Positions 3,553 through 16,474 of a DNA stretch of 21,643 bases are shown piece after piece. Below the pieces are notes generated by a model. That model ran no database searches and was not told the origin of the DNA. It was given only the letters and a program-made list of their open reading frames with translations. Position numbers and translations under genes: made by a program. Position 1 is the first letter of the stretch; every line of letters begins with the position of its first letter. This DNA comes from a virus, in IMG/VR virus record IMGVR_UViG_3300030108_002521, positions 1 through 21,643 of that record; one strand, written 5' to 3'.

Positions 3553-4461
3553 TTACGCGCCTTTAGATCCGTACACACAACGAGGATCAGAGAAACCGAA
3601 GCTGTAACGCTCACGGGCTTTGAACCGTACATTGCCAGTATCGAAATCGCCTTCCATCTTTGTGGACATGGGCATACGCTCAAAGTGAACGAAACCACGA
3701 GGAGCATCCGTCTTGATGAAGAACGCATCCGTATCCGTCAGATAGTGGTTAACAACATAACCCTGCGGCAACATACCCATGTTACGCATTGCGTTAACAT
3801 CGTTGTCCGCAGAACCTGGGCGAAGAGTGGACTCAAGCAGACGATCCGCGACGAACTGAAGATTCGGCGGGATAATCAGCTTTTGACCACGAACCGATAC
3901 TTTAAGACCACGCTCATCGACAAAAGCTGCAATGTCAATAAGAGCATTCTCAAGGCTGGTTTCGTTCAGGTCAGCATCAGTGCTGGGCTCGTTGCGAAGC
4001 GTGCCATTGTTTACCAATGGGTGGTCAGTAGCACAAAGCTCCTTACCATCACCACCAGTAAAAGTGCTATCAAAAGCATTGTTCAACGTAGCCGCAGCTT
4101 TCACCTGTTTGGTGTTAGCCATGCTACGAGCCAAAGCTTTCGTATAGCGAGAGGCAAGGCGGTCATAAAGATTATCTTCAATCGCTTCTTCCGTAATGGA
4201 GAAAGCAAGAGCGATAGTCTCATGCGTATACCGTGCCGTGTACGCTTCTTGTGCATCGTCAAAAGAAACAGCGGAACCTTCCTGTTTTACGGGCGCAGAC
4301 CCAAAACCAGAAAGCATCACTTCTTCTTCGAAAGCACGCTCCGAAGATTCAGTGTCATAGATTTCCGCAGATTCGTCTTCGTACCGGGCATACTCAAGGC
4401 CGAAAAGGGCGTTGAGACCGGGCTCTAGCTCTTTAGCTAGTTGGGCTCTACTGATAGCCAT
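3553..4461 (-). CDS. Major capsid protein (Mu gpT-like, HK97 fold)
   Basis: 302 residues. The N-terminus MAISRAQLAKELEPGLNALFG, the YTHETIALAFSITEEAIEDNLYDRL block, the ALARSMANTKQVKAAATLNNAF helix and ATDHPLVNNGTLRN loop fit the Mu-like major head subunit (gpT) family, which adopts the HK97 capsid fold. The C-terminus ends RYSFGFSDPRCVYGSKG. It forms the capsid shell. A complete AGGAGG Shine-Dalgarno sits 8 nt before the ATG, the strongest ribosome site in the block, fitting the need for hundreds of copies. Neighbours are a decoration-like protein and, further upstream, the scaffold. No N-terminal propeptide is evident, in keeping with scaffold-assisted assembly. Confidence 0.93.
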   Translation of the reverse strand: MAISRAQLAKELEPGLNALFGLEYARYEDESAEIYDTESSERAFEEEVMLSGFGSAPVKQEGSAVSFDDAQEAYTARYTHETIALAFSITEEAIEDNLYDRLASRYTKALARSMANTKQVKAAATLNNAFDSTFTGGDGKELCATDHPLVNNGTLRNEPSTDADLNETSLENALIDIAAFVDERGLKVSVRGQKLIIPPNLQFVADRLLESTLRPGSADNDVNAMRNMGMLPQGYVVNHYLTDTDAFFIKTDAPRGFVHFERMPMSTKMEGDFDTGNVRFKARERYSFGFSDPRCVYGSKGA

Positions 4462-5614: not shown

Positions 5615-5616
5615 GA

Positions 5617-6501
5617 TTAATCCCTCACATATTTAGCGTATTCTTCAAGCGGTACATTTAACCTCTTTGCAATAGCAACTTGAGAAGGCGTTAATCGCAC
5701 AGTTTTTCGTCCACTTCTATTGCGGGATGCAGAGGCCTCGGCTGACGCAACCTTTCGGCTTCCCCCGTTACTTTTAGACTTAGCATCAAATTTCTGAGGA
5801 AACTCTGCTCTAAGCCTATTGTCTAATTCAGCATAGTAGTCATCTGAAGTTGGGTCAAATCCTTCATCTTCGACCAGACGCCTATGAATGCCAAAAGCAC
5901 CATATGTCATAACTTCATCTTGGCCAAACCAGTCATTTTTTTGAGCCCATGCTTCGGCTTTGGGGTCAGGAGGAGGAGCAGGGGCAGCGGGAGCAGCTGG
6001 GGCGGCTTGCGGTTGAGGCGCAGTTTCTTCCTTAGTCTGCACTTCTTCCTTTTCGGCCCTAACAGCTTTCAAGGTTCCCTTCTCAACAGTCAAATCAGCT
6101 AAAGCCGCTTGAGCATCAACAATCTTATCAACATCGCCCGTCTCATGAGCTTGTCTCAAAATCTCTTTTGCTGACTCAATTTGATTAGAGACCCTAGTCT
6201 CAAACTGTTCTTGATAGCCTTTGTCCAAAGACTGAATGCGCTCTTTTAAGCCTTCATTCTCTTTGCGGACATTCTCGGCATACTCAATAGCAGTTTGTTT
6301 CTGCCGTTCTTCCTCACGGAAACGTTTGGTCAAATTGTTAATTCTACTTTTGACCCCAGAACTATAATCATCAAGTTCCTCTTCGGAAGCTTGAACTTTT
6401 TCTTCAGACTCTTCTTTGGGCTCTTCGGAATCGTCAGATAAGTCTACACTTACTGAATTTTCTTCCTCATCACCTATGTCGATCTTGGACTCTTCAGGCA
6501 T
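5617..6501 (-). CDS. Scaffolding (prohead core) protein
   Basis: 294 residues with the typical three-part scaffold layout. Residues 1-48 are extremely acidic (Glu/Asp/Ser), residues about 49-155 form a long charged coiled coil, and a Pro/Ala linker (APAAPAAPAPPPDP, about 166-182) leads to a basic C-terminal part ending LTPSQVAIAKRLNVPLEEYAKYVRD. The basic helical tail is the part that contacts capsid subunits in known scaffolds. The gene lies two genes upstream of the major capsid gene and directly follows the GroES-like gene, all classical for a head-assembly cassette. GGAG lies 7 nt before the ATG. No protease motif is visible, so removal would be by exit or by another protease. Confidence 0.85.
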   Translation of the reverse strand: MPEESKIDIGDEEENSVSVDLSDDSEEPKEESEEKVQASEEELDDYSSGVKSRINNLTKRFREEERQKQTAIEYAENVRKENEGLKERIQSLDKGYQEQFETRVSNQIESAKEILRQAHETGDVDKIVDAQAALADLTVEKGTLKAVRAEKEEVQTKEETAPQPQAAPAAPAAPAPPPDPKAEAWAQKNDWFGQDEVMTYGAFGIHRRLVEDEGFDPTSDDYYAELDNRLRAEFPQKFDAKSKSNGGSRKVASAEASASRNRSGRKTVRLTPSQVAIAKRLNVPLEEYAKYVRD

Positions 6502-6530
6502 GGTTTTTCTCCATGGTCTCTTTCTTCTTT

Positions 6531-7019
6531 CTATACATGCTTGATGTCATCCGGTTCGAGGATTGTCGCAATGACCTCATCATCATTGATGATCCGTACT
6601 TCGCCACCATCGATCTTAAATCGAGCGCCGGCATATCGGCCAATGCAAACCCAATCACCTTCCTTACACCAAGATTGCCCATCTGGGCCAAATTTACCGG
6701 GGTCTTGATATGCAAGAGGCCCAACCCTCAAGACATACGCAACCACGGTAGCGAGTGCTTCTCTATCACGAACAGCATCAGGAATATGTATGCCACCGTC
6801 TGTGGTGGCCTTCCCCATGTAAGGCATGACAAGAAGACGCCAGCCTGTTGGCTGGGGGAGTCTTTCTTTTAAGTTTTTGGAAACGAGAGATGGATCAAGA
6901 ACTTTATCGCTCTTGTCTATGTAAGCTTTAATTACGGTTGCATCCTCTTTTATGCGTTTTTTAGCCGATTTCTTTTGCGAATCCAGAACATGATCTGGAA
7001 CGTAGAGAGTTTTAGACAT
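6531..7019 (-). CDS. GroES-like co-chaperonin with N-terminal extension
   Basis: 162 residues. Residues about 58-155 match the Cpn10/GroES fold: GWRLLVMPYMGKATTDGGIHIPD (first strand and mobile loop), TVVAYVLRVGPLAY, KEGDWVCIGRYAGARFKIDGG and the closing VRIINDDEVIATIL. The GGI-hydrophobic-hydrophobic-P element at about 75-80 corresponds to the mobile-loop tripeptide that docks into the GroEL apical domain. The first 55 residues are a charged helical extension not present in bacterial GroES. Like T4 gp31, it probably replaces host GroES to help the host chaperonin fold the phage capsid protein; its place next to the scaffold gene supports this. The start overlaps the preceding stop as TGATG. 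Confidence 0.85.
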   Translation of the reverse strand: MSKTLYVPDHVLDSQKKSAKKRIKEDATVIKAYIDKSDKVLDPSLVSKNLKERLPQPTGWRLLVMPYMGKATTDGGIHIPDAVRDREALATVVAYVLRVGPLAYQDPGKFGPDGQSWCKEGDWVCIGRYAGARFKIDGGEVRIINDDEVIATILEPDDIKHV

Positions 7020-7210
7020 CAGTCCTCCGATGATTGCAAGAGATCCCTTATCTCTTGTTCTGCAAACTCCAATCCCTTCAGTTCTCCGATTAGCAGCTTA
7101 TAAGACTCCATGTCTTTAGGACTGCCGTGAAGGATAGAATCTTGCGTTAGTTCTATGCGACCCTGTATAGCCTTTAATACGGCATATGCAAAGGTCGTTG
7201 GGTCGGCCAT
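7019..7210 (-). CDS. Small conserved phage protein, unknown function
   Basis: 63 residues, acidic, mostly helical (AYAVLKAIQGRIELTQDSIL, ESYKLLIGELKGLEFAEQEIRDLL), ending SSED. Both ends overlap neighbouring genes by one base (TAATG at 7210, TGATG at 7019), so it is translationally coupled to the co-chaperonin gene. Similar short helical proteins occur beside head genes in other phages and are usually called hypothetical. I cannot assign a function. Confidence 0.65.
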   Translation of the reverse strand: MADPTTFAYAVLKAIQGRIELTQDSILHGSPKDMESYKLLIGELKGLEFAEQEIRDLLQSSED

Positions 7211-7650
7211 TAAAAGATACCTGAGAAGTTCTTACCTTTGATCGCACCGCCAACAGCGTACTTGATGGGGTCGCGCTTCTTCTCTTTCATCGCACCACCA
7301 ACCATGTAGCCTAAATCTTCAGGCATCGTTGCGGTGCCACCTTCGGCCCTTTTAAGGCCCCGGACTGTTCTCCGGGTTGAGTAACCCTTAGCCCTTTGAG
7401 CTTCAGGACCATAATCGGCAAGCAATTCTTCATCTTTTGCAAGGTCTTCAAGTATTTGTTTCCGCGCTCTTTTAGATTGTTCTTTGTCTCCGCTAAATCG
7501 CACACGAGCGCGGCGATTTGATTCCATTTGTTGCCGTGCTTCTTCAAAACGTTCTTCCCCAAGCTTTTCCTCTCGGTCTCTCCGTCTTTGAAAATACGCT
7601 TTTATTTCTTTTTCTGACATGCCTCGAATGTCTGGTTGATTGGGGTCCAT
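7210..7650 (-). CDS. Small basic protein with GG boxes and Phe C-terminus
   Basis: 146 residues. The first 95 are a very charged helix (YFQRRRDREEKLGEERFEEA, RRARVRFSGDKEQSKRARKQ). The tail carries three glycine boxes, RAEGGTAT, YMVGGAMK and YAVGGAIK, and ends GKNFSGIF. The boxes and the terminal aromatic are shared with the next genes (see the finding on this array). No enzymatic motif is present. Its place in the head block and basic charge suggest a minor virion, DNA-binding or assembly role, which is inference. Confidence 0.6.
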   Translation of the reverse strand: MDPNQPDIRGMSEKEIKAYFQRRRDREEKLGEERFEEARQQMESNRRARVRFSGDKEQSKRARKQILEDLAKDEELLADYGPEAQRAKGYSTRRTVRGLKRAEGGTATMPEDLGYMVGGAMKEKKRDPIKYAVGGAIKGKNFSGIF

Positions 7651-7922
7651 TAGAAAGTTCCTTTTCCACCGTTGTCATTATACCTAAAAGCTCTCGCCGC
7701 TCCACCTTCGGCCATCTTCATGACTTCTTCCTCGGACACGCCTTCCATCTTAGCGACAATATCTGGGCGTTCTTCTCTCAGGGCTCTCTGACCTTCATTC
7801 AAGCCACCTTCGGCCATCTCCACATCATTCATTTGTTTAGCTTTGTTCATAAGACCCTTGGCCTCCGATTTAGGGATGTCCATCTGTTCAGACATCTGGT
7901 TTACCATTCTACTTTTAGCCAT
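7650..7922 (-). CDS. Small helical protein with repeated MAEGG motif
   Basis: 90 residues, two helix-turn units each followed by MAEGG (VEMAEGGLNEG and MKMAEGGAARA), ending NDNGGKGTF. A SEQMDIPKSEAKGLMNKAKQ stretch is the most helical part. It is coupled at both ends by one-base overlaps. Less basic than its neighbours, but the GG box and phenylalanine end place it in the same set. Function unknown. Confidence 0.6.
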   Translation of the reverse strand: MAKSRMVNQMSEQMDIPKSEAKGLMNKAKQMNDVEMAEGGLNEGQRALREERPDIVAKMEGVSEEEVMKMAEGGAARAFRYNDNGGKGTF

Positions 7923-8224
7923 CAGAAAATCCTCACTTTAATAGCGCCACCTGTATACCGCTTTACAGCCTTAACCCTTCTAGGCTTCCCTGCCGGTTGT
8001 CCTAGCCTTCTCTTTTGTGAAATCCTAGACCTTTTTTCAGAAGATGTTAACTCACTTGATGTTTTTGGTGTCTTCTTTGATACACGTTTACTGGGTCTAC
8101 AGTAAGGTGTTCCTCTCTTCTCACCCTTCTTTCTGCCACAAGGTTTTCCCGTTCTAACATCCACCCAGTCTTCCTTAAACCAACGTTTAAGTGCCGCGCC
8201 CTTCGCTGTCTTACGAACAGCCAT
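7922..8224 (-). CDS. Small basic Cys-containing protein, resembles DUF5872 family
   Basis: 100 residues starting MAVRKTAKGAALKRWFKEDW. A longer in-frame reading from 8275 exists, but the ATG at 8224 overlaps the previous stop as TGATG, matching the operon pattern. KRWFKEDWVDVRTGKPCGR and TPYCRPSKRVSKKTP resemble the small family with K-W-F--W-V-D, PCGR and P-C-P blocks that I recall as DUF5872 in phages and large algal viruses. The two cysteines (29 and 42) are likely paired or metal-binding. The C-terminus is RYTGGAIKVRIF. Highly basic, so nucleic acid binding is plausible; not shown. Confidence 0.65.
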   Translation of the reverse strand: MAVRKTAKGAALKRWFKEDWVDVRTGKPCGRKKGEKRGTPYCRPSKRVSKKTPKTSSELTSSEKRSRISQKRRLGQPAGKPRRVKAVKRYTGGAIKVRIF

Positions 8225-8433
8225 CAGAAAATCTTGACCTGTCGGCCACTGTGACGCGACATGACCGCACCACAACCGTTGGTCTTAACCGTGCCGCCTA
8301 CAGCTCTTTTGGTTTTGTTGCCCCAATTGCTGGCGCCTACCTTACGGCATTTAGCAATCGCTCCGGAAGCATAGGCCGAAGGAAACACCTTATACCTTGC
8401 TTTGACTTTCCTATAACAAGCGTCTTTTGCCAT
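8224..8433 (-). CDS. Small basic Cys-containing protein, conserved in phages
   Basis: 69 residues from the ATG at 8433, which overlaps the upstream stop as TAATG (a reading from 8445 adds four residues and is less likely). Sequence DACYRKVKARYKVFPSAYAS followed by GAIAKCRKVGASNWGNK is a compact family I remember from marine phages and some large viruses of algae. Three cysteines (6, 29, 54), high Lys/Arg content, an RAVGGTVK box and the end GRQVKIF link it to its neighbours. Function unknown; virion or DNA-condensing role is inference. Confidence 0.65.
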   Translation of the reverse strand: MAKDACYRKVKARYKVFPSAYASGAIAKCRKVGASNWGNKTKRAVGGTVKTNGCGAVMSRHSGRQVKIF

Positions 8434-8732
8434 TAGCACTTCCACCTTCTACGAGCCTGCCGAATACGAGAGTTTGGATCATTTCTTGTTTTGGCAGAAC
8501 TACGTTTCAACTGACCCAAAGATCTAGCGCAATAACTCTTCCTACGTTTCGCCGCTGCGCTTCCTTTTTTCACCTTACCCGTTACAGCCGTCTTGAGTTT
8601 AGAACCAGGGTTGGCTTTACGGTACGCTGCAACGCCCTTCTTAGTCATCCCGGCACCACTCTTGGTGGGGCGATAGTTGGCACCTTTGCCCTTTGTAGTG
8701 CGCCGAATTGGTTTTTCTCGTTTTCTAGCCAT
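8433..8732 (-). CDS. Very basic small protein, resembles DUF6321 family
   Basis: 99 residues with more than 35 Lys/Arg. Blocks GAGMTKKGVAAYRKANPGSKLKTAV, AAKRRKSYCARSLGQLK and the end ARRRWKC match the small family recalled as DUF6321, whose hallmark is K-S-F/Y-C-A-R followed by a terminal W-x-C. Cys68 and Cys99 are probably the conserved pair. Members occur in tailed phages and in algal large DNA viruses. The gene is the first after the parS palindrome: its ATG lies 2 nt from it, and there is no normal Shine-Dalgarno because the palindrome fills the gap. Confidence 0.7.
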   Translation of the reverse strand: MARKREKPIRRTTKGKGANYRPTKSGAGMTKKGVAAYRKANPGSKLKTAVTGKVKKGSAAAKRRKSYCARSLGQLKRSSAKTRNDPNSRIRQARRRWKC

Positions 8733-8734
8733 AT

Positions 8735-8750
8735 TGTTTCACGTGAAACA
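8735..8750. promoter_or_regulatory. Perfect parS site (ParB-binding palindrome)
   Basis: TGTTTCACGTGAAACA is a perfect 16-bp palindrome identical to the canonical chromosomal parS bound by ParB in Bacillus, Caulobacter and most bacteria. With two further bases it makes up the whole 18-nt gap between two genes in an otherwise overlapping gene chain. Chance occurrence of this exact 16-mer in 21.6 kb is about 5 in a million. No parA or parB gene is visible in the window, so host ParB would be the binder. Identity as parS is certain by sequence; function in the phage is unknown. Confidence 0.9.
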
Positions 8751-9422
8751 TTACTTCTTGTTGTACAAATTATCAAAAGTCACCGAAGGGTCCATGTAAC
8801 TGTCGTCAGATTCCGCGTTATGCATCCATTGACTTGGTTTAAAATCAGGGGCTCCTTCACCTGTTTCCCACAAAGCGGGACTTGTTGTCCTAACTCGGTT
8901 ATTGGGTAATGCAATTATGTTACCTGTCCATTTTCCAGCGTCCGTAAGTTCGATCACATGACTTTGTTTATGCTGGGCGGGGTCATCCGAAATAGAAGAC
9001 TCCGTGTAATCAACCGTAAACATATATTTACCCGTATAAAACTCACCATCAATCTTACAAAGCCAAGGACTAGAACTTGTTCTATCGTACACTATCACAG
9101 AATGATTTCTAGAACTACAGTCCCACGGCTGGGCATGATGGGTCACCATTCTTTCTGGCCACTCCTCAAGTGGCGTATCTGCCACGAGGGCCGTGATAGG
9201 CATTCTAGCCCACATGGCCCCCCCGTGGATGTTTTCCTCATCCGAATCGTCACTTTCACAGCCTGTAAAAATAACTTGAAAGCTTAAAGAACGATCTGGA
9301 ATCGTATTGACTGCTATAACCATGGCATGGAGAAACTCTCCATGATACTTCTCGTGATTATGCGTGAACTCTCTTCGCACCCAGCAATGAAAATGCGGGA
9401 TGTTGCTTTGCAAATATGGCAT
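8751..9422 (-). CDS. Conserved marine-phage protein, unknown function
   Basis: 223 residues. MPYLQSNIPHFHCWVRREFTHNHEKYHGEF, then VIFTGCESDDSDEENIHGGAMWARMPITALVADTPLEEWPERM are strongly patterned and familiar from marine phage genomes, where the protein lacks a known role. It is rich in Trp, His and Cys (HCW, TGCE, WDCSS), with mixed alpha/beta character and acidic overall, unlike the basic proteins around it. Conserved HGGAMWARMP could form a binding site, but I see no known catalytic motif. It overlaps the upstream basic protein by TAATG and is followed immediately by parS. Confidence 0.7.
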   Translation of the reverse strand: MPYLQSNIPHFHCWVRREFTHNHEKYHGEFLHAMVIAVNTIPDRSLSFQVIFTGCESDDSDEENIHGGAMWARMPITALVADTPLEEWPERMVTHHAQPWDCSSRNHSVIVYDRTSSSPWLCKIDGEFYTGKYMFTVDYTESSISDDPAQHKQSHVIELTDAGKWTGNIIALPNNRVRTTSPALWETGEGAPDFKPSQWMHNAESDDSYMDPSVTFDNLYNKK

Positions 9423-9643
9423 TACTTACGTTTGGCGCCACCACGAGCAAAACCTTTTTTCTTCATGCCGCCACCCATCTGACGTTTAACACCACCACGA
9501 GCGTAACCCTTTTTCTTTTTAGCTACGCCCATGCCGCCGCCCATCATCTTCTTGCGAGTGCCGCCTTTTTTCTTTTTCATAGCCACTTTTTTTCTCCTAT
9601 TACCAGTTAACTGTTTAGGCATTTGAGAACGAGATATAGTCAT
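9422..9643 (-). CDS. Tiny poly-basic repeat protein
   Basis: 73 residues from the ATG at 9643, which overlaps the upstream stop (TGATG). After MTISRSQMPKQLTGNRRKK it consists of Lys runs and Met/Gly runs with an internal repeat: MGGGMGVAKKKKGYARGGVK and MGGGMKKKGFARGGAK. It is almost purely Lys, Arg, Gly and Met and is probably disordered and DNA- or RNA-binding. It shares the ARGG box with its neighbours. Function unknown; a histone-tail-like packaging or capsid-interior role is speculative. Confidence 0.6.
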   Translation of the reverse strand: MTISRSQMPKQLTGNRRKKVAMKKKKGGTRKKMMGGGMGVAKKKKGYARGGVKRQMGGGMKKKGFARGGAKRK

Positions 9644-9885
9644 CAAAATACCCTCGTATTTTTAGCCATACCACCATCATTTAACAACATACTCGTGTAC
9701 TGATCTATGGTATTCGCCTTGTTCCTCTTTTTTAAAGAAGCACGCATGGCTTTTTGCATACCTCTATCAATAGAACGCAGGTCAGGGTTGCCGACTTTGG
9801 GCGCACCTCTTCTAGTCAAATGAATCTTACCAATACCTCTACCGCGTCTGCGGGTAGGGATCGTTGGTTTTGTTTTACGACTCAA
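9643..9885 (-). CDS. Small basic protein ending TRVF, TTG start
   Basis: 80 residues. The start is a TTG at 9885 inside the upstream stop (TTGA overlap), with GAGGG 6-7 nt before it; no ATG occurs until residue 43, so TTG is the best choice. Arg-rich N-terminus (TRRRGRGIGKIHLTRRGAPK) suggests nucleic acid contact. It ends LLNDGGMAKNTRVF, nearly the same as the upstream protein (NDGGMAEKTRVF). Function unknown. Confidence 0.6.
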   Translation of the reverse strand: MSRKTKPTIPTRRRGRGIGKIHLTRRGAPKVGNPDLRSIDRGMQKAMRASLKKRNKANTIDQYTSMLLNDGGMAKNTRVF

Positions 9886-10148
9886 AACACCCTCGTTTTT
9901 TCAGCCATGCCGCCATCGTTACGTTTCAACATTTTCTTCACGTCTTCAAAGCCTCTATCAGTCAAGACTTCTGTCGCGTCAGGATCATTCATGGCTGCTC
10001 TTAACATTTCTTCTCTTGTCTTTTTTGTTTTTTCATCAATAACTTTATCAATAAGTTCTTGAGTTCTAGGCTTTCTATTTCCAAATCTTCTATTAGCAGC
10101 TTGCTGCATTAATCGGCGACTTGATTTTTCAGGACTTCTACCAGACAT
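9882..10148 (-). CDS. Small basic helical protein ending TRVF
   Basis: 88 residues. An Arg-rich start (SPEKSSRRLMQQAANRRFGN) is followed by helices (ELIDKVIDEKTKKTREEMLR) and the tail RNDGGMAEKTRVF shared with the next gene, which suggests an old duplication of the tail or a common binding peptide. It begins 4 nt after the portal stop, with AAGGA about 9 nt before the ATG. Function unknown; coupled to portal expression. Confidence 0.6.
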   Translation of the reverse strand: MSGRSPEKSSRRLMQQAANRRFGNRKPRTQELIDKVIDEKTKKTREEMLRAAMNDPDATEVLTDRGFEDVKKMLKRNDGGMAEKTRVF

Positions 10149-10152
10149 TTTA

Positions 10153-12546
10153 CTAATTCCTTTGCTGCCTATCTTGTTGTTCCATACGCTCTCTGTTCAC
10201 TTCTGCACGTAAAAGCGCAATATCTTCTTGCGAGTCCATCTTCTCTCGGACAAGCTCCTGACGATCTTCTTCTTTCTCCTTGTCGAACAGATGCTGCAGA
10301 GCAAACTCTTCAGACTTGCGCTGCACATCAGCCGCTTTGATATCAAGTTCTTTAGACCGAAGTTCTACGAGAGGGTCTACTTGTCCTTCCGGTGGCGGCA
10401 TGAATGCGGCCATAACTTCTTGAGTATAAGTGGCTACCAATTCAGCGACCCTCGCCTCGGCATCCACTTGTGGCGGCTGTTGACCCATCTGCATAGCCTG
10501 CTCCATAGCCATCCTCATTTCAGCGTCTGCAACGCCTCGAGCCTTAAAGGCAATATGCTCACATATGTGTGCTTGAAGTAAACCAAACACGGGAGGGGAC
10601 GAGGCTACGATAGGTGTCTGCATAAACACAATATGAGATGCTATATGCGAATCATGATCTTGAGTAGGGAACGCCTGTAAGGGTTCTTGTATAATTGACT
10701 TGGCGTTCTCAATAGCTGGGTCGGTGGGTTGTGGTGGTTGTGGCGTTGGCAACAAAGCCTCTATGTTGTCCACCCCTATCGCTTCATAAATGCGACGATA
10801 CGCCTCGTGCAAGTTGTGCATCTGAGGATTGCTTTGAGCAAGTTGCAGTTGCGTTTGTGCCAGAGCCAAACGTTGAGACATGGAGAAGATATTTGGATCT
10901 GACACAGGTATGACATCTACCCTCTCGTCAAAGTCCATCTGCTTAACCATCGCCTCCGCACCATAGACATTATAGGGGTACATAGGAGGGAGTGATTCAG
11001 CGAACACACGACCTAGCATCCTAAACTCTTGTTTTTGTGCATAATGCAGTCTTTTGTGTATGGCTGACATCACCTTTGATCCGCGCTCCAAAAGAGCAAC
11101 GGTTGTTCCTACCGCAGCTTGTTGATTGCCGTCTCCCACTTGCATATCAGCTATGGAAGCAAACCTACGGCCAGCATCCACAACAAATCCCAAAAGACCC
11201 ATCAGCGTCTGGCTTGGTTCCTTATAGGGAAGCGGCAAGATGCTTTCTCGCAAAGCACCGCCGGGGACATCAATATCGCGAAACTCACCAGGAGACAGAG
11301 GCTCATCAGCGTCACGAATCCTAATACCACGAGCTTTAAAGCCAGCGGGAAGATTAGCAAGTGTTCCAGCATCGATCAGTTGCCTCAAGATGGAAGTTGC
11401 GGAACGGCCTAGACCACCAATCATATGCAGTAGTCCAAACCCATAAAAACCTAAACCGGGTAGAAACTTGTAGTGTGCAAAGTACTGTGTTTTTCTGTAA
11501 TATTCGTCGCCCTCTCTCCAGTTCCTACGAACAGAAAGAACCTTTGAACTTCCTTCGTCTATCGTCACAATATAAGGAAGCTTGATACCCGTCTCTTCGC
11601 CGTCTATCGGATTGGTGTGTTCAAAACCCGGCAGATCTAAATCCGTGTGAACCTCAAGGATAGTGCAGTCTTGATCGTCAGCGCCTGTCTTCTCAACGCC
11701 CATTAAGCTACGTTCTTTCTCCTTCAGTTCATCGTCGGAGTCATACGCCGTAAGTTCGATATCACGATAAAACCCAGCCGCCTGAAACTTCCGTACATCA
11801 TTCGTGTTCATGCGAATGACATGTGTGATACGAGAAGCCGAACTTAAATCGGTAGCATTATACGGAACAAGAAGATCATCAGCCGGCACAAATCGAGATA
11901 CGGCCCTGTCTAAAATATCATCGTAATACACCTTCTTGAACGCACTTCCAGCCAAGGGAAGATAAAACAACAGACGATCCATCTCTGGATCATACTCATC
12001 CATGACATGAGTTATCTGGTAATTCATAAATTCCTGAACACGTTGGGCCTGCATCTCAACGTCAGGAGTTGCTGCACCAACGACCTGAGTTCGAACCGGA
12101 CCAGAACTAGGAAGAAGTTCTCTATACGCCTGCGCCTGAAACTGTGTAACGGCCTCGGCTATAATCGGGTGGGTCACGCCACTAGAGCCCCTAAAAGGTT
12201 CTTCGCGTGTTTCATACTTGATACCAAGAAGATCCAAACCGTCTGTGTAGGCATCCTCCCACTCCTGACGGCCACTCTTATCGTCTTCGTAATACCCAAC
12301 GAGTTCTGAGGAAATATCCATCAGAACCCTCTCGTCCATAATTTCAGCTAAATTGGCGTCAGGCTCTGTCTGAAGTTCTTCCGTGATCATCTCATCAAAG
12401 TTGAGAACAACAGACCCATCCTCGTCTTCCATCATATCGGTGGGTTCTTCAATCTCCTCAACCTCAATCTCTTCTTCACTACCGCCTAACGGCATACCTT
12501 GAGAGGGCATGGACGTATCTATTAGTGAGATGGGTTCTTTTGCCAT
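10153..12546 (-). CDS. Portal protein
   Basis: 797 residues, long for portals and in the range of P22/SU10-type proteins. An acidic N-terminal arm (about 1-75) leads to GRQEWEDAYTDGLDLLGIKY, EPFRGSSGVTHPIIAEAVTQ and FQAQAYRELLPSSGPVRTQV, which are characteristic of this portal family. Then RLLFYLPLAGSAFKKVYYDD and RFVPADDLLVPYNATDLSSA follow. The C-terminal third is helical and Gln/Met/Glu-rich (barrel and crown region), ending in a coiled coil. Twelve copies form the ring through which terminase pumps DNA and to which the adaptor and connector proteins attach. It is overlapped by the holin gene (TAATG) and followed by small basic genes. Confidence 0.93.
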   Translation of the reverse strand: MAKEPISLIDTSMPSQGMPLGGSEEEIEVEEIEEPTDMMEDEDGSVVLNFDEMITEELQTEPDANLAEIMDERVLMDISSELVGYYEDDKSGRQEWEDAYTDGLDLLGIKYETREEPFRGSSGVTHPIIAEAVTQFQAQAYRELLPSSGPVRTQVVGAATPDVEMQAQRVQEFMNYQITHVMDEYDPEMDRLLFYLPLAGSAFKKVYYDDILDRAVSRFVPADDLLVPYNATDLSSASRITHVIRMNTNDVRKFQAAGFYRDIELTAYDSDDELKEKERSLMGVEKTGADDQDCTILEVHTDLDLPGFEHTNPIDGEETGIKLPYIVTIDEGSSKVLSVRRNWREGDEYYRKTQYFAHYKFLPGLGFYGFGLLHMIGGLGRSATSILRQLIDAGTLANLPAGFKARGIRIRDADEPLSPGEFRDIDVPGGALRESILPLPYKEPSQTLMGLLGFVVDAGRRFASIADMQVGDGNQQAAVGTTVALLERGSKVMSAIHKRLHYAQKQEFRMLGRVFAESLPPMYPYNVYGAEAMVKQMDFDERVDVIPVSDPNIFSMSQRLALAQTQLQLAQSNPQMHNLHEAYRRIYEAIGVDNIEALLPTPQPPQPTDPAIENAKSIIQEPLQAFPTQDHDSHIASHIVFMQTPIVASSPPVFGLLQAHICEHIAFKARGVADAEMRMAMEQAMQMGQQPPQVDAEARVAELVATYTQEVMAAFMPPPEGQVDPLVELRSKELDIKAADVQRKSEEFALQHLFDKEKEEDRQELVREKMDSQEDIALLRAEVNRERMEQQDRQQRN

Positions 12547-15013: not shown

Positions 15014-16474
15014 CTAATAATATTGTCTCGCTTGCGGACGGATCACAGGTTCGTCCTCTTCTTCGTCGCTGTCAAGTCGAAGGAACCCACCTTTACGGTA
15101 TCTAATGAGTGCCATCGACATACTATCACAGAAGTCATCGTGTTCGCCATTAGGAAATGCCGCACATTCATCTATGACTTCCTCAGAAAACTTTTTCTCA
15201 GGCGCCCAAACCTTTCCAGACTCAAAAATCGGCGCCACCATATGCATCCTCGTGTGCTTATCACGGCCCTTGGACGGTGTATAATTGACAACAGGTATCC
15301 CCATCGTCCTCAACTCGTCCGTGAGCGGTGTACCACTGGCCTTGGCCTCAATCAAAACCATGTCGGGCTCCCAATAATTGTACTCCTCCATCGCATTCGA
15401 CTTTAGTTCCGGGAAGTCCCAGCGCCCACGCTTCGCATCCATAAGAATTATGTTGTCCGGACCACCCTCACTCGGCTGAAATACACCCCACGTGGTAATA
15501 GCAGAGTAGTCTGCCGTCTCCTTCTTACTAAACGCCGTGTCATAACTCTGCATAATGTAGCTCACAGGAGGTATGGAGTCCTTCTCCCACTTGTTCCACC
15601 ACTCCTTCTTTATAATCGCACCCTCTTCAGCCGTAGGATTCTGCTGCCACTGTGCATTCCACTTGCCCACGGACAATGAAGCCTTGACCTTTAACAACTC
15701 CTCCTTCTTCCAGAACTCCGGCCACAGAACATTGTCACTCGGAAGTATCGCTGGAAACTCAACCACGTCCCATTGATCAGCCATCACGTCAGACGCCTGC
15801 GCCTTAATCAGCTTGCCCGTCAAATCCTTCAACGACCACCGCGTCATAACCACAACTATCGAACCACCAGGCTGTAACCGCTGACGAGGACCAGACGTAT
15901 ACCACTCATACGCATGTTCCATCGCCGTATCAGACAACGCATCCTGTTCAGAATGAGGATCGTCAATGATCAACAAATCTGCACCACGGCCCGTGATGGC
16001 TCCACCTACACCAGCCGCAAAATATTCACCCCCCTGCCCGGTCTCCCAACGACCAGCAGCTTTCGAATCCGCACGCAAATCAACGTCAGGAAAAATCTCC
16101 TTGTATATCTCCAGCTCCATAAGGTTCCTTACCTTACGACCAAACCGTACCGCCAACTCAGCCGTGTGAGTCGTCTGGATAATCTTCAATTCTGGATTCT
16201 TGCCTATCAACCACGCCGGCAATAAATACGATGCAAACTCAGACTTCGTATGACGAGGGGGCATGTTGACAATGATCCGTGAACCGGGGTTCATGGACAA
16301 CTTCTCAAACTGACGTGCAACCTGCTTATGATGGGTCCCCTCTATAAAACCCTCATACACATGCTTCACAAACGCCATGAAATCATTCTGTGCAACTTCC
16401 CTGATCGATAATGTCCGCTTGGCCTGTTCCAAAGCCAAGATTTCACGCATTACCTCATCTGTCGCATTTAACAC
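15014..16474 (-). CDS. terL: Terminase large subunit
   Basis: 486 residues. ATPase domain: Walker A-like PPRHTKSE (72-79), Walker B LLIIDDPHS (167-175) and coupling motif VVVMTRW (207-213). Nuclease domain: D312 in SYDTAFSK, E376 in LIEAKASG and D446/D447 in EHDDFCDSM, the RNase H-like acidic triad. It cuts concatemeric DNA and pumps it through the portal. The start is GTG at 16474, chosen because GGAG lies 7 nt upstream; an ATG at 16450 lacks such a site. No small terminase subunit is recognised in the window. It is the first gene of the leftward late block, and an AT-rich divergent gap precedes it. Confidence 0.97.
   Translation of the reverse strand: MLNATDEVMREILALEQAKRTLSIREVAQNDFMAFVKHVYEGFIEGTHHKQVARQFEKLSMNPGSRIIVNMPPRHTKSEFASYLLPAWLIGKNPELKIIQTTHTAELAVRFGRKVRNLMELEIYKEIFPDVDLRADSKAAGRWETGQGGEYFAAGVGGAITGRGADLLIIDDPHSEQDALSDTAMEHAYEWYTSGPRQRLQPGGSIVVVMTRWSLKDLTGKLIKAQASDVMADQWDVVEFPAILPSDNVLWPEFWKKEELLKVKASLSVGKWNAQWQQNPTAEEGAIIKKEWWNKWEKDSIPPVSYIMQSYDTAFSKKETADYSAITTWGVFQPSEGGPDNIILMDAKRGRWDFPELKSNAMEEYNYWEPDMVLIEAKASGTPLTDELRTMGIPVVNYTPSKGRDKHTRMHMVAPIFESGKVWAPEKKFSEEVIDECAAFPNGEHDDFCDSMSMALIRYRKGGFLRLDSDEEEDEPVIRPQARQYY

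Follow-up and report, generated by a model that had tools for sequence, protein, structure and literature searches.

A putative orphan, host-type parS site in the head genes of HTVC023P/HTVC027P-type podoviruses

The palindrome and its setting

The DNA analysed here, referred to as the window, is the whole 21,643 nt of IMG/VR virus record IMGVR_UViG_3300030108_002521 (G000), which at 21.6 kb may be a fragment. It comes from a marine phage that, by its terminase, portal, GroES-like, scaffold and capsid genes, belongs with the podoviruses of the HTVC023P/HTVC027P type; the nearest cultured portal proteins, at 52–54 % identity, are those of two Pelagibacter phages. The G+C content of the window is 46 %, versus approximately 35 % for most of HTVC027P. 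Scanning the portal protein against bacterial genomes in order to name a host returned nothing. Among 50 related records an integrase was detected in one, a contig that is not clearly of the HTVC023P/HTVC027P-type family.

The head and packaging genes lie on the minus strand. The terminase large subunit gene (15014–16474) belongs to the upstream part of the head/packaging zone and the major capsid protein gene (3553–4461) marks the downstream end of the zone that holds the sites of this family. Between them are the portal protein gene (10153–12546), which served as the anchor for relatives, and a series of overlapping small genes (6531–10148). These small genes include a 223-aa gene (8751–9422; PHROG 3704, 'ferredoxin', and PurM in HTVC023P/027P) and a 99-aa gene of unknown function (8433–8732; PHROG 10346). 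The stop codon of the former and the ATG of the latter are separated by an 18-nt gap (8733–8750), consisting of the 16-bp palindrome TGTTTCACGTGAAACA (8735–8750, no strand assigned) and 2 nt, so that the stop codon abuts the palindrome and the start codon lies 2 nt past it. The 16-mer matches the chromosomal parS consensus exactly (Livny et al. 2007, as cited in PMC10197239).

An earlier note on this DNA, made from the sequence alone, had described an exact canonical parS in this gap, with a chance of approximately 5e-6 for the window. The 16-mer and the gap were found as described, and the same chance was obtained at equal base frequencies. The palindrome is the single match in the window at up to three mismatches, and shuffles gave 0.15 matches at that threshold. 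The note had also called this the only intergenic gap in the chain of coupled small genes, which holds for 10148–6531; applied to the whole operon it would be slightly too strong, as gaps of 4 nt (10149–10152), 29 nt (6502–6530) and 2 nt (5615–5616) are also present there. A terminator at the window site was considered and rejected, as no T-run follows the palindrome and none is predicted there.

Two further observations concern the surrounding genes. The PurM/ferredoxin-like 223-aa gene relocates among relatives in the manner of a mobile cassette, being found after the portal gene, before a tail gene or in the replication module. Many consecutive small head-operon proteins of the window (7210–10148, minus strand) carry C-terminal tags ending in F or Y, such as GGxxxKTRVF, YNDNGGKGTF, IKGKNFSGIF and RQVKIF, and 41 of approximately 107 small ORFs from ten loci end in F. 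The loci sharing C-terminal tags with the window were L126, L144, L152, L162, L173, L178, L184, L187 and L193. These termini may serve to sort or dock proteins during head assembly.

Conservation, placement and wider occurrence of the site

Following a check proposed in the earlier note, the 16-mer was sought in related phages, represented by 41 portal sequences with less than 99 % mutual identity and extending down to approximately 78 % identity to the window. The site was present with at most one mismatch in 34 of the 41, in all cases within 3 kb downstream of the portal gene; for three of the seven site-negative representatives, the available downstream sequence is shorter than 750 bp. When 60 shuffled palindromes were sought, none occurred in any of the 41 representatives. 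Mean pairwise identity was 0.98 for the site, 0.41 for the ungapped flanks and 0.37 for four-fold sites of the portal gene, the last value indicating that the neutral background is saturated. The pattern in the 16 bp is one of purifying selection combined with parS-like tolerated variants. The variants among relatives were TGTTTCATGTGAAACA, TGTTCCACGTGAAACA, outer-base changes and one instance of TGTTTCACGTTAAACA, and all except TGTTTCACGTTAAACA also occur in alphaproteobacterial genomes. The kinds of variant common to the family and these genomes were a CATG centre, T to C at position 5 and a changed outer base. In locus L487 (terL 87 % and portal 75 % identical to the window) a paired C/G change affects positions 5 and 12, and the site lies 125 bp after the portal gene.

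The note had suggested scanning for the site at the same junction. Relatives do carry the site, but the junction is not fixed, usually falling between terS and the capsid gene, and at least ten different gene junctions host it across the relatives. In these, the site follows the PurM-like gene or other small genes, lies on either side of the 99-aa gene, or falls between terL and portal. At L126 the site lies within the coding sequence of a scaffold-like gene, in the frame NVSRET. At many loci it directly follows the upstream stop codon and ends 2 nt before an ATG, and this arrangement recurs at several different gene pairs. Such mobility is the behaviour of a position-independent DNA element.

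The site has also been lost. The subclade L137, L140 and L145 illustrates the fate of the site once constraint is absent, with disappearance near the portal gene by decay or deletion; L145 reads TTCTTTACGTGAAAAA at the same junction, from which the site is gone in L140. HTVC027P, cultured on SAR11, carries the one-mismatch form CGTTTCACGTGAAACA, which also occurs in a SAR11 genome, and several complete relatives have no site; one of them, HTVC023P, shares its SAR11 host with HTVC027P. Its absence from these complete genomes and its loss in one subclade indicate that the site is not essential to every member. The GC skew of HTVC027P, examined as a replication-origin check, showed a local disturbance at 15–18 kb near its site and no clear switch.

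Placement was assessed in 15 long records of 24–61 kb. A zone that starts 3 kb upstream of terS and closes with the capsid gene holds 22 of their 24 sites, and one of the two outside this zone is 45 bp past the capsid stop codon. The first site fell in the zone for nine of ten lineages, where 3.9 were expected (P approximately 0.001, for a zone defined after inspection). Clustering around terL as an artefact of short contigs chosen by hallmark genes was considered and rejected because the clustering persists in the 15 long records, with the zone set post hoc. The other common bacterial parS form, TGTTCCACGTGGAACA, showed the same placement and was often found directly after the capsid gene. 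As a rule there are one to three sites per genome, and most of the window's clade have exactly one.

Multiple sites were observed in some other phages. Three to five exact parS copies are packed into approximately 0.9 kb at L017:2657–3444, L044:10535–11462 and L053:240–961; these phages have a distant terminase (28–29 % identical), and the arrays adjoin terL in L017 and L044. A 201-kb virus contig has two parS (L069:4944–4959 and 5819–5834) with identical flanks, ttgacaaaatggaaa ... tctgcattgtgtcaa, which resemble a promoter duplicated together with the site.

In IMG/VR, TGTTTCACGTGAAACA was found in at least 120 contigs and TGTTCCACGTGGAACA likewise in at least 120, and control palindromes of the same core or composition were found in five (TTGTTCACGTGAACAA), one (TGTTTGACGTCAAACA) and two (TGATTCACGTGAATCA). 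Among the matches listed, marker genes of the window's phage family accompanied approximately 32 of 80 contigs with TGTTTCACGTGAAACA and 22 of 79 loci with TGTTCCACGTGGAACA. Other site-bearing contigs had different terminases, portals, a tape measure protein or replication genes. A single site was seen in each of four microviruses (4.4–6 kb, with VP1 and Rep), the T form in three and the C form in the fourth. These Gokushovirus-like sites are at L006:3842–3857, L026:1966–1981, L076:2536–2551 and L472:2485–2500; some are followed by a T-run and could double as a terminator. Among cultured relatives, Alcaligenes phage vB_Af_QDWS535, which has a laboratory host, carries TGTTCCACGTGGAACA at 47934 (L461:3935–3950, corresponding to OK172329 47934–47949), inside a 165-nt annotated ORF; terL follows approximately 2.2 kb later when the map is read as a circle. 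The site is not unique to the window phage or its junction: it is recurrent in HTVC023P/HTVC027P-type podoviruses and also present in unrelated phages. A metagenomic contig with a parS match should not be taken for a bacterial origin region on that ground.

Host ParB and the use of the site

The earlier note's remark that no parB is visible was borne out beyond the window. The ParB_N domain (PF02195) was absent from all 50 related records, a set of nine complete phage genomes and otherwise fragmentary contigs in which a divergent ParB could escape PF02195; the window is itself a 21.6-kb fragment of its own genome, elsewhere in which a ParB is possible. Among the matches listed, three of 80 exact-site IMG/VR contigs had ParB_N above the cut-off and one below it. 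For the records examined, a phage-encoded ParB was rejected.

On the host side, the site was found within one mismatch in 131 of 144 alphaproteobacterial genomes, versus two with a reversed control. Of 22 partial assemblies of SAR11 single-cell genomes, 15 contained it exactly once (at most one mismatch), and in all ten inspected a gene encoding a ParA Walker motif lay approximately 600 bp away. These counts suggest a single site for a SAR11-type host, the same number that phages of the clade generally carry. The window site equals the SAR11 and alphaproteobacterial chromosomal parS.

Judged by these sequence comparisons, the window site is an apparent orphan, without a detected ParB gene, and a host-type parS under selection. 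Host ParB very probably binds it. The capture of host ParB is strongly supported by conservation over a saturated background, mobility between junctions, host-like substitutions, the absence of ParB and the parA-adjacent site of SAR11. The earlier note had proposed this capture together with silencing or timing of late genes, positioning or partition of phage DNA and titration of ParB as possible uses; the capture stands on comparison, but the uses are inseparable by sequence data.

At chromosomal parS, host ParB loads with CTP, slides along the DNA and engages ParA and SMC (PMC12704722; PMC7022226). We consider it an even call that selection maintains the 16-mer as a functional parS of the host type, through which phage DNA is handled like a host centromere; partition or positioning of phage DNA as the use of the site is placed at this level or slightly under it. 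Site-bearing phages probably borrow the host chromosome-sorting machinery. On DNA entry, host ParB would load at the phage parS with CTP and slide across the adjoining head and packaging genes, which are presumably silent early, leaving few transcribing polymerases to strip the ParB clamps. Host ParA, together with polar anchors or SMC, would then treat the phage DNA as the host's own centromere. The phage DNA could thereby be kept with the nucleoid, positioned and inherited by daughter cells if division precedes lysis. Late transcription and rising copy number would strip and dilute the ParB complex, freeing the DNA for packaging.

A centromere-like role is favoured by the small number of sites, their free position, the lack of a detected ParB and the precedent of SGI1 (PMC10954446). 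With one to three sites and no fixed position, a centromere is a better match than an operator. Partition alone would not predict the preference of the sites for the head zone; this preference can be reconciled with a centromere on the assumption that early-silent DNA accumulates clamps and late transcription clears them.

The same preference would fit a copy-number-sensing late-gene switch, in which ParB spreads from the site and damps the head genes at low copy until replication dilutes ParB and frees the late genes. ParB at an intergenic parS can repress its neighbours in Pseudomonas aeruginosa (PMC7022226), and the position of the first site between terS and capsid in nine of ten lineages points the same way, although the zone was chosen after looking. 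However, the site lies upstream, inside or downstream of varying head genes, even in coding sequence, which is unlike an operator, and a switch of this kind is considered unlikely. It also counts against a switch that silencing by native chromosomal ParB is weak and that ParB is cleared by transcription, not transcription by ParB.

If the site were instead a decoy, replicating phage genomes would titrate ParB off the chromosome, and segregation or control of the cell cycle in the host would stall. The single parS of SAR11 would be outnumbered by a large number of phage copies, up to five sites occur in some relatives (L017, L044), and SGI1 destabilises its helper plasmid in such a way (PMC10954446). 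A decoy would gain from many sites, yet most of the clade keep exactly one, and we regard this use as rather doubtful. Loading of SMC (condensin), whereby SMC recruited by ParB at the site would compact phage DNA or resolve its entanglements close to where packaging starts, is in keeping with the clustering of sites around terS, terL and portal and with the loading of SMC by ParB–parS in several bacteria (PMC7022226). This use appears improbable; the site is also found in four microviruses of 4.4–6 kb.

That the palindrome serves a phage-encoded DNA-binding regulator, or forms an RNA hairpin in the late transcript, is very improbable. The 16-mer hairpin is weak (−3.9 kcal/mol), and a 45-nt region of the window reaches −8.4 (z −3.3). 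However, the half-changed form TGTTCCACGTGAAACA has no hairpin and is nonetheless present in several relatives, the position in the transcript is not fixed, and the same sequences occur in unrelated phages and beside parA in bacterial chromosomes. The RNA hairpin was rejected because half-changed sites do not fold and the position is free. Chance or misassembled bacterial DNA, short as the motif is and metagenomic as the contig is, has a negligible probability and is already refuted by the conservation of the site in relatives, the control palindromes being at least 24 to 120 times rarer and phage head genes flanking the site in dozens of contigs.

Returning to the centromere-like role, we tentatively propose, at somewhat less than even confidence, that capture of host ParB by an orphan parS is a general phage strategy that evolved repeatedly in podoviruses, other tailed phages and ssDNA microviruses. 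Viruses without lysogeny genes would in this way make their DNA count as a host centromere, and placement in late genes would couple loss of the partition complex to the packaging switch. If so, abundant, apparently non-lysogenic phages of slow-growing marine bacteria plug into host chromosome segregation, and a concrete mechanism would be available for carrier states or the positioning of infecting genomes. The 16-mer is a simple genomic marker for screening, and cultured carriers exist in HTVC027P and Alcaligenes phage vB_Af_QDWS535.

Comparison with known systems

The window shares the terminase, portal, GroES, scaffold and capsid module of HTVC023P/HTVC027P-type pelagiphages (PMC9599517), of which HTVC023P is without the site and HTVC027P has it with one outer mismatch. 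The description of HTVC023P-type genomes in PMC9599517 makes no mention of parS or ParB. Relative to chromosomal ParABS, the 16 bp are identical and the tolerated variants are the same as in alphaproteobacterial genomes, whereas the phage site is in head and packaging genes with no ParB gene found and chromosomal parS lies near oriC and parAB. A complete ParABS, with ParB on the same replicon, was seen in none of the 50 related records.

Phage P1 encodes its own ParA and ParB, and its parS differs. P1-type phage-plasmids resemble the window phage in being phage DNA with a centromere site, but they have their own ParA, ParB and parS, whereas the relatives of the window have no ParB_N (50 records) and a host-type site.

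No report of an orphan host-type parS or of chromosomal ParB capture in phages was found in the full-text literature, a search with most subscription journals and preprints outside its scope. The parS copies of SGI1 bind the ParB of its IncC helper plasmid, by which SGI1 is stabilised and the helper destabilised (PMC10954446). SGI1 is integrative and mimics a plasmid ParABS, whereas the phage site is of the chromosomal type, is accompanied by no detected integrase and occurs in several phage families. As far as we found, the trick is known from this one mobile genetic island and not for phages, and SGI1 parS mimicry is the closest precedent: SGI1 is a mobile element whose parS binds the ParB of another replicon, as is probable for the phage site.
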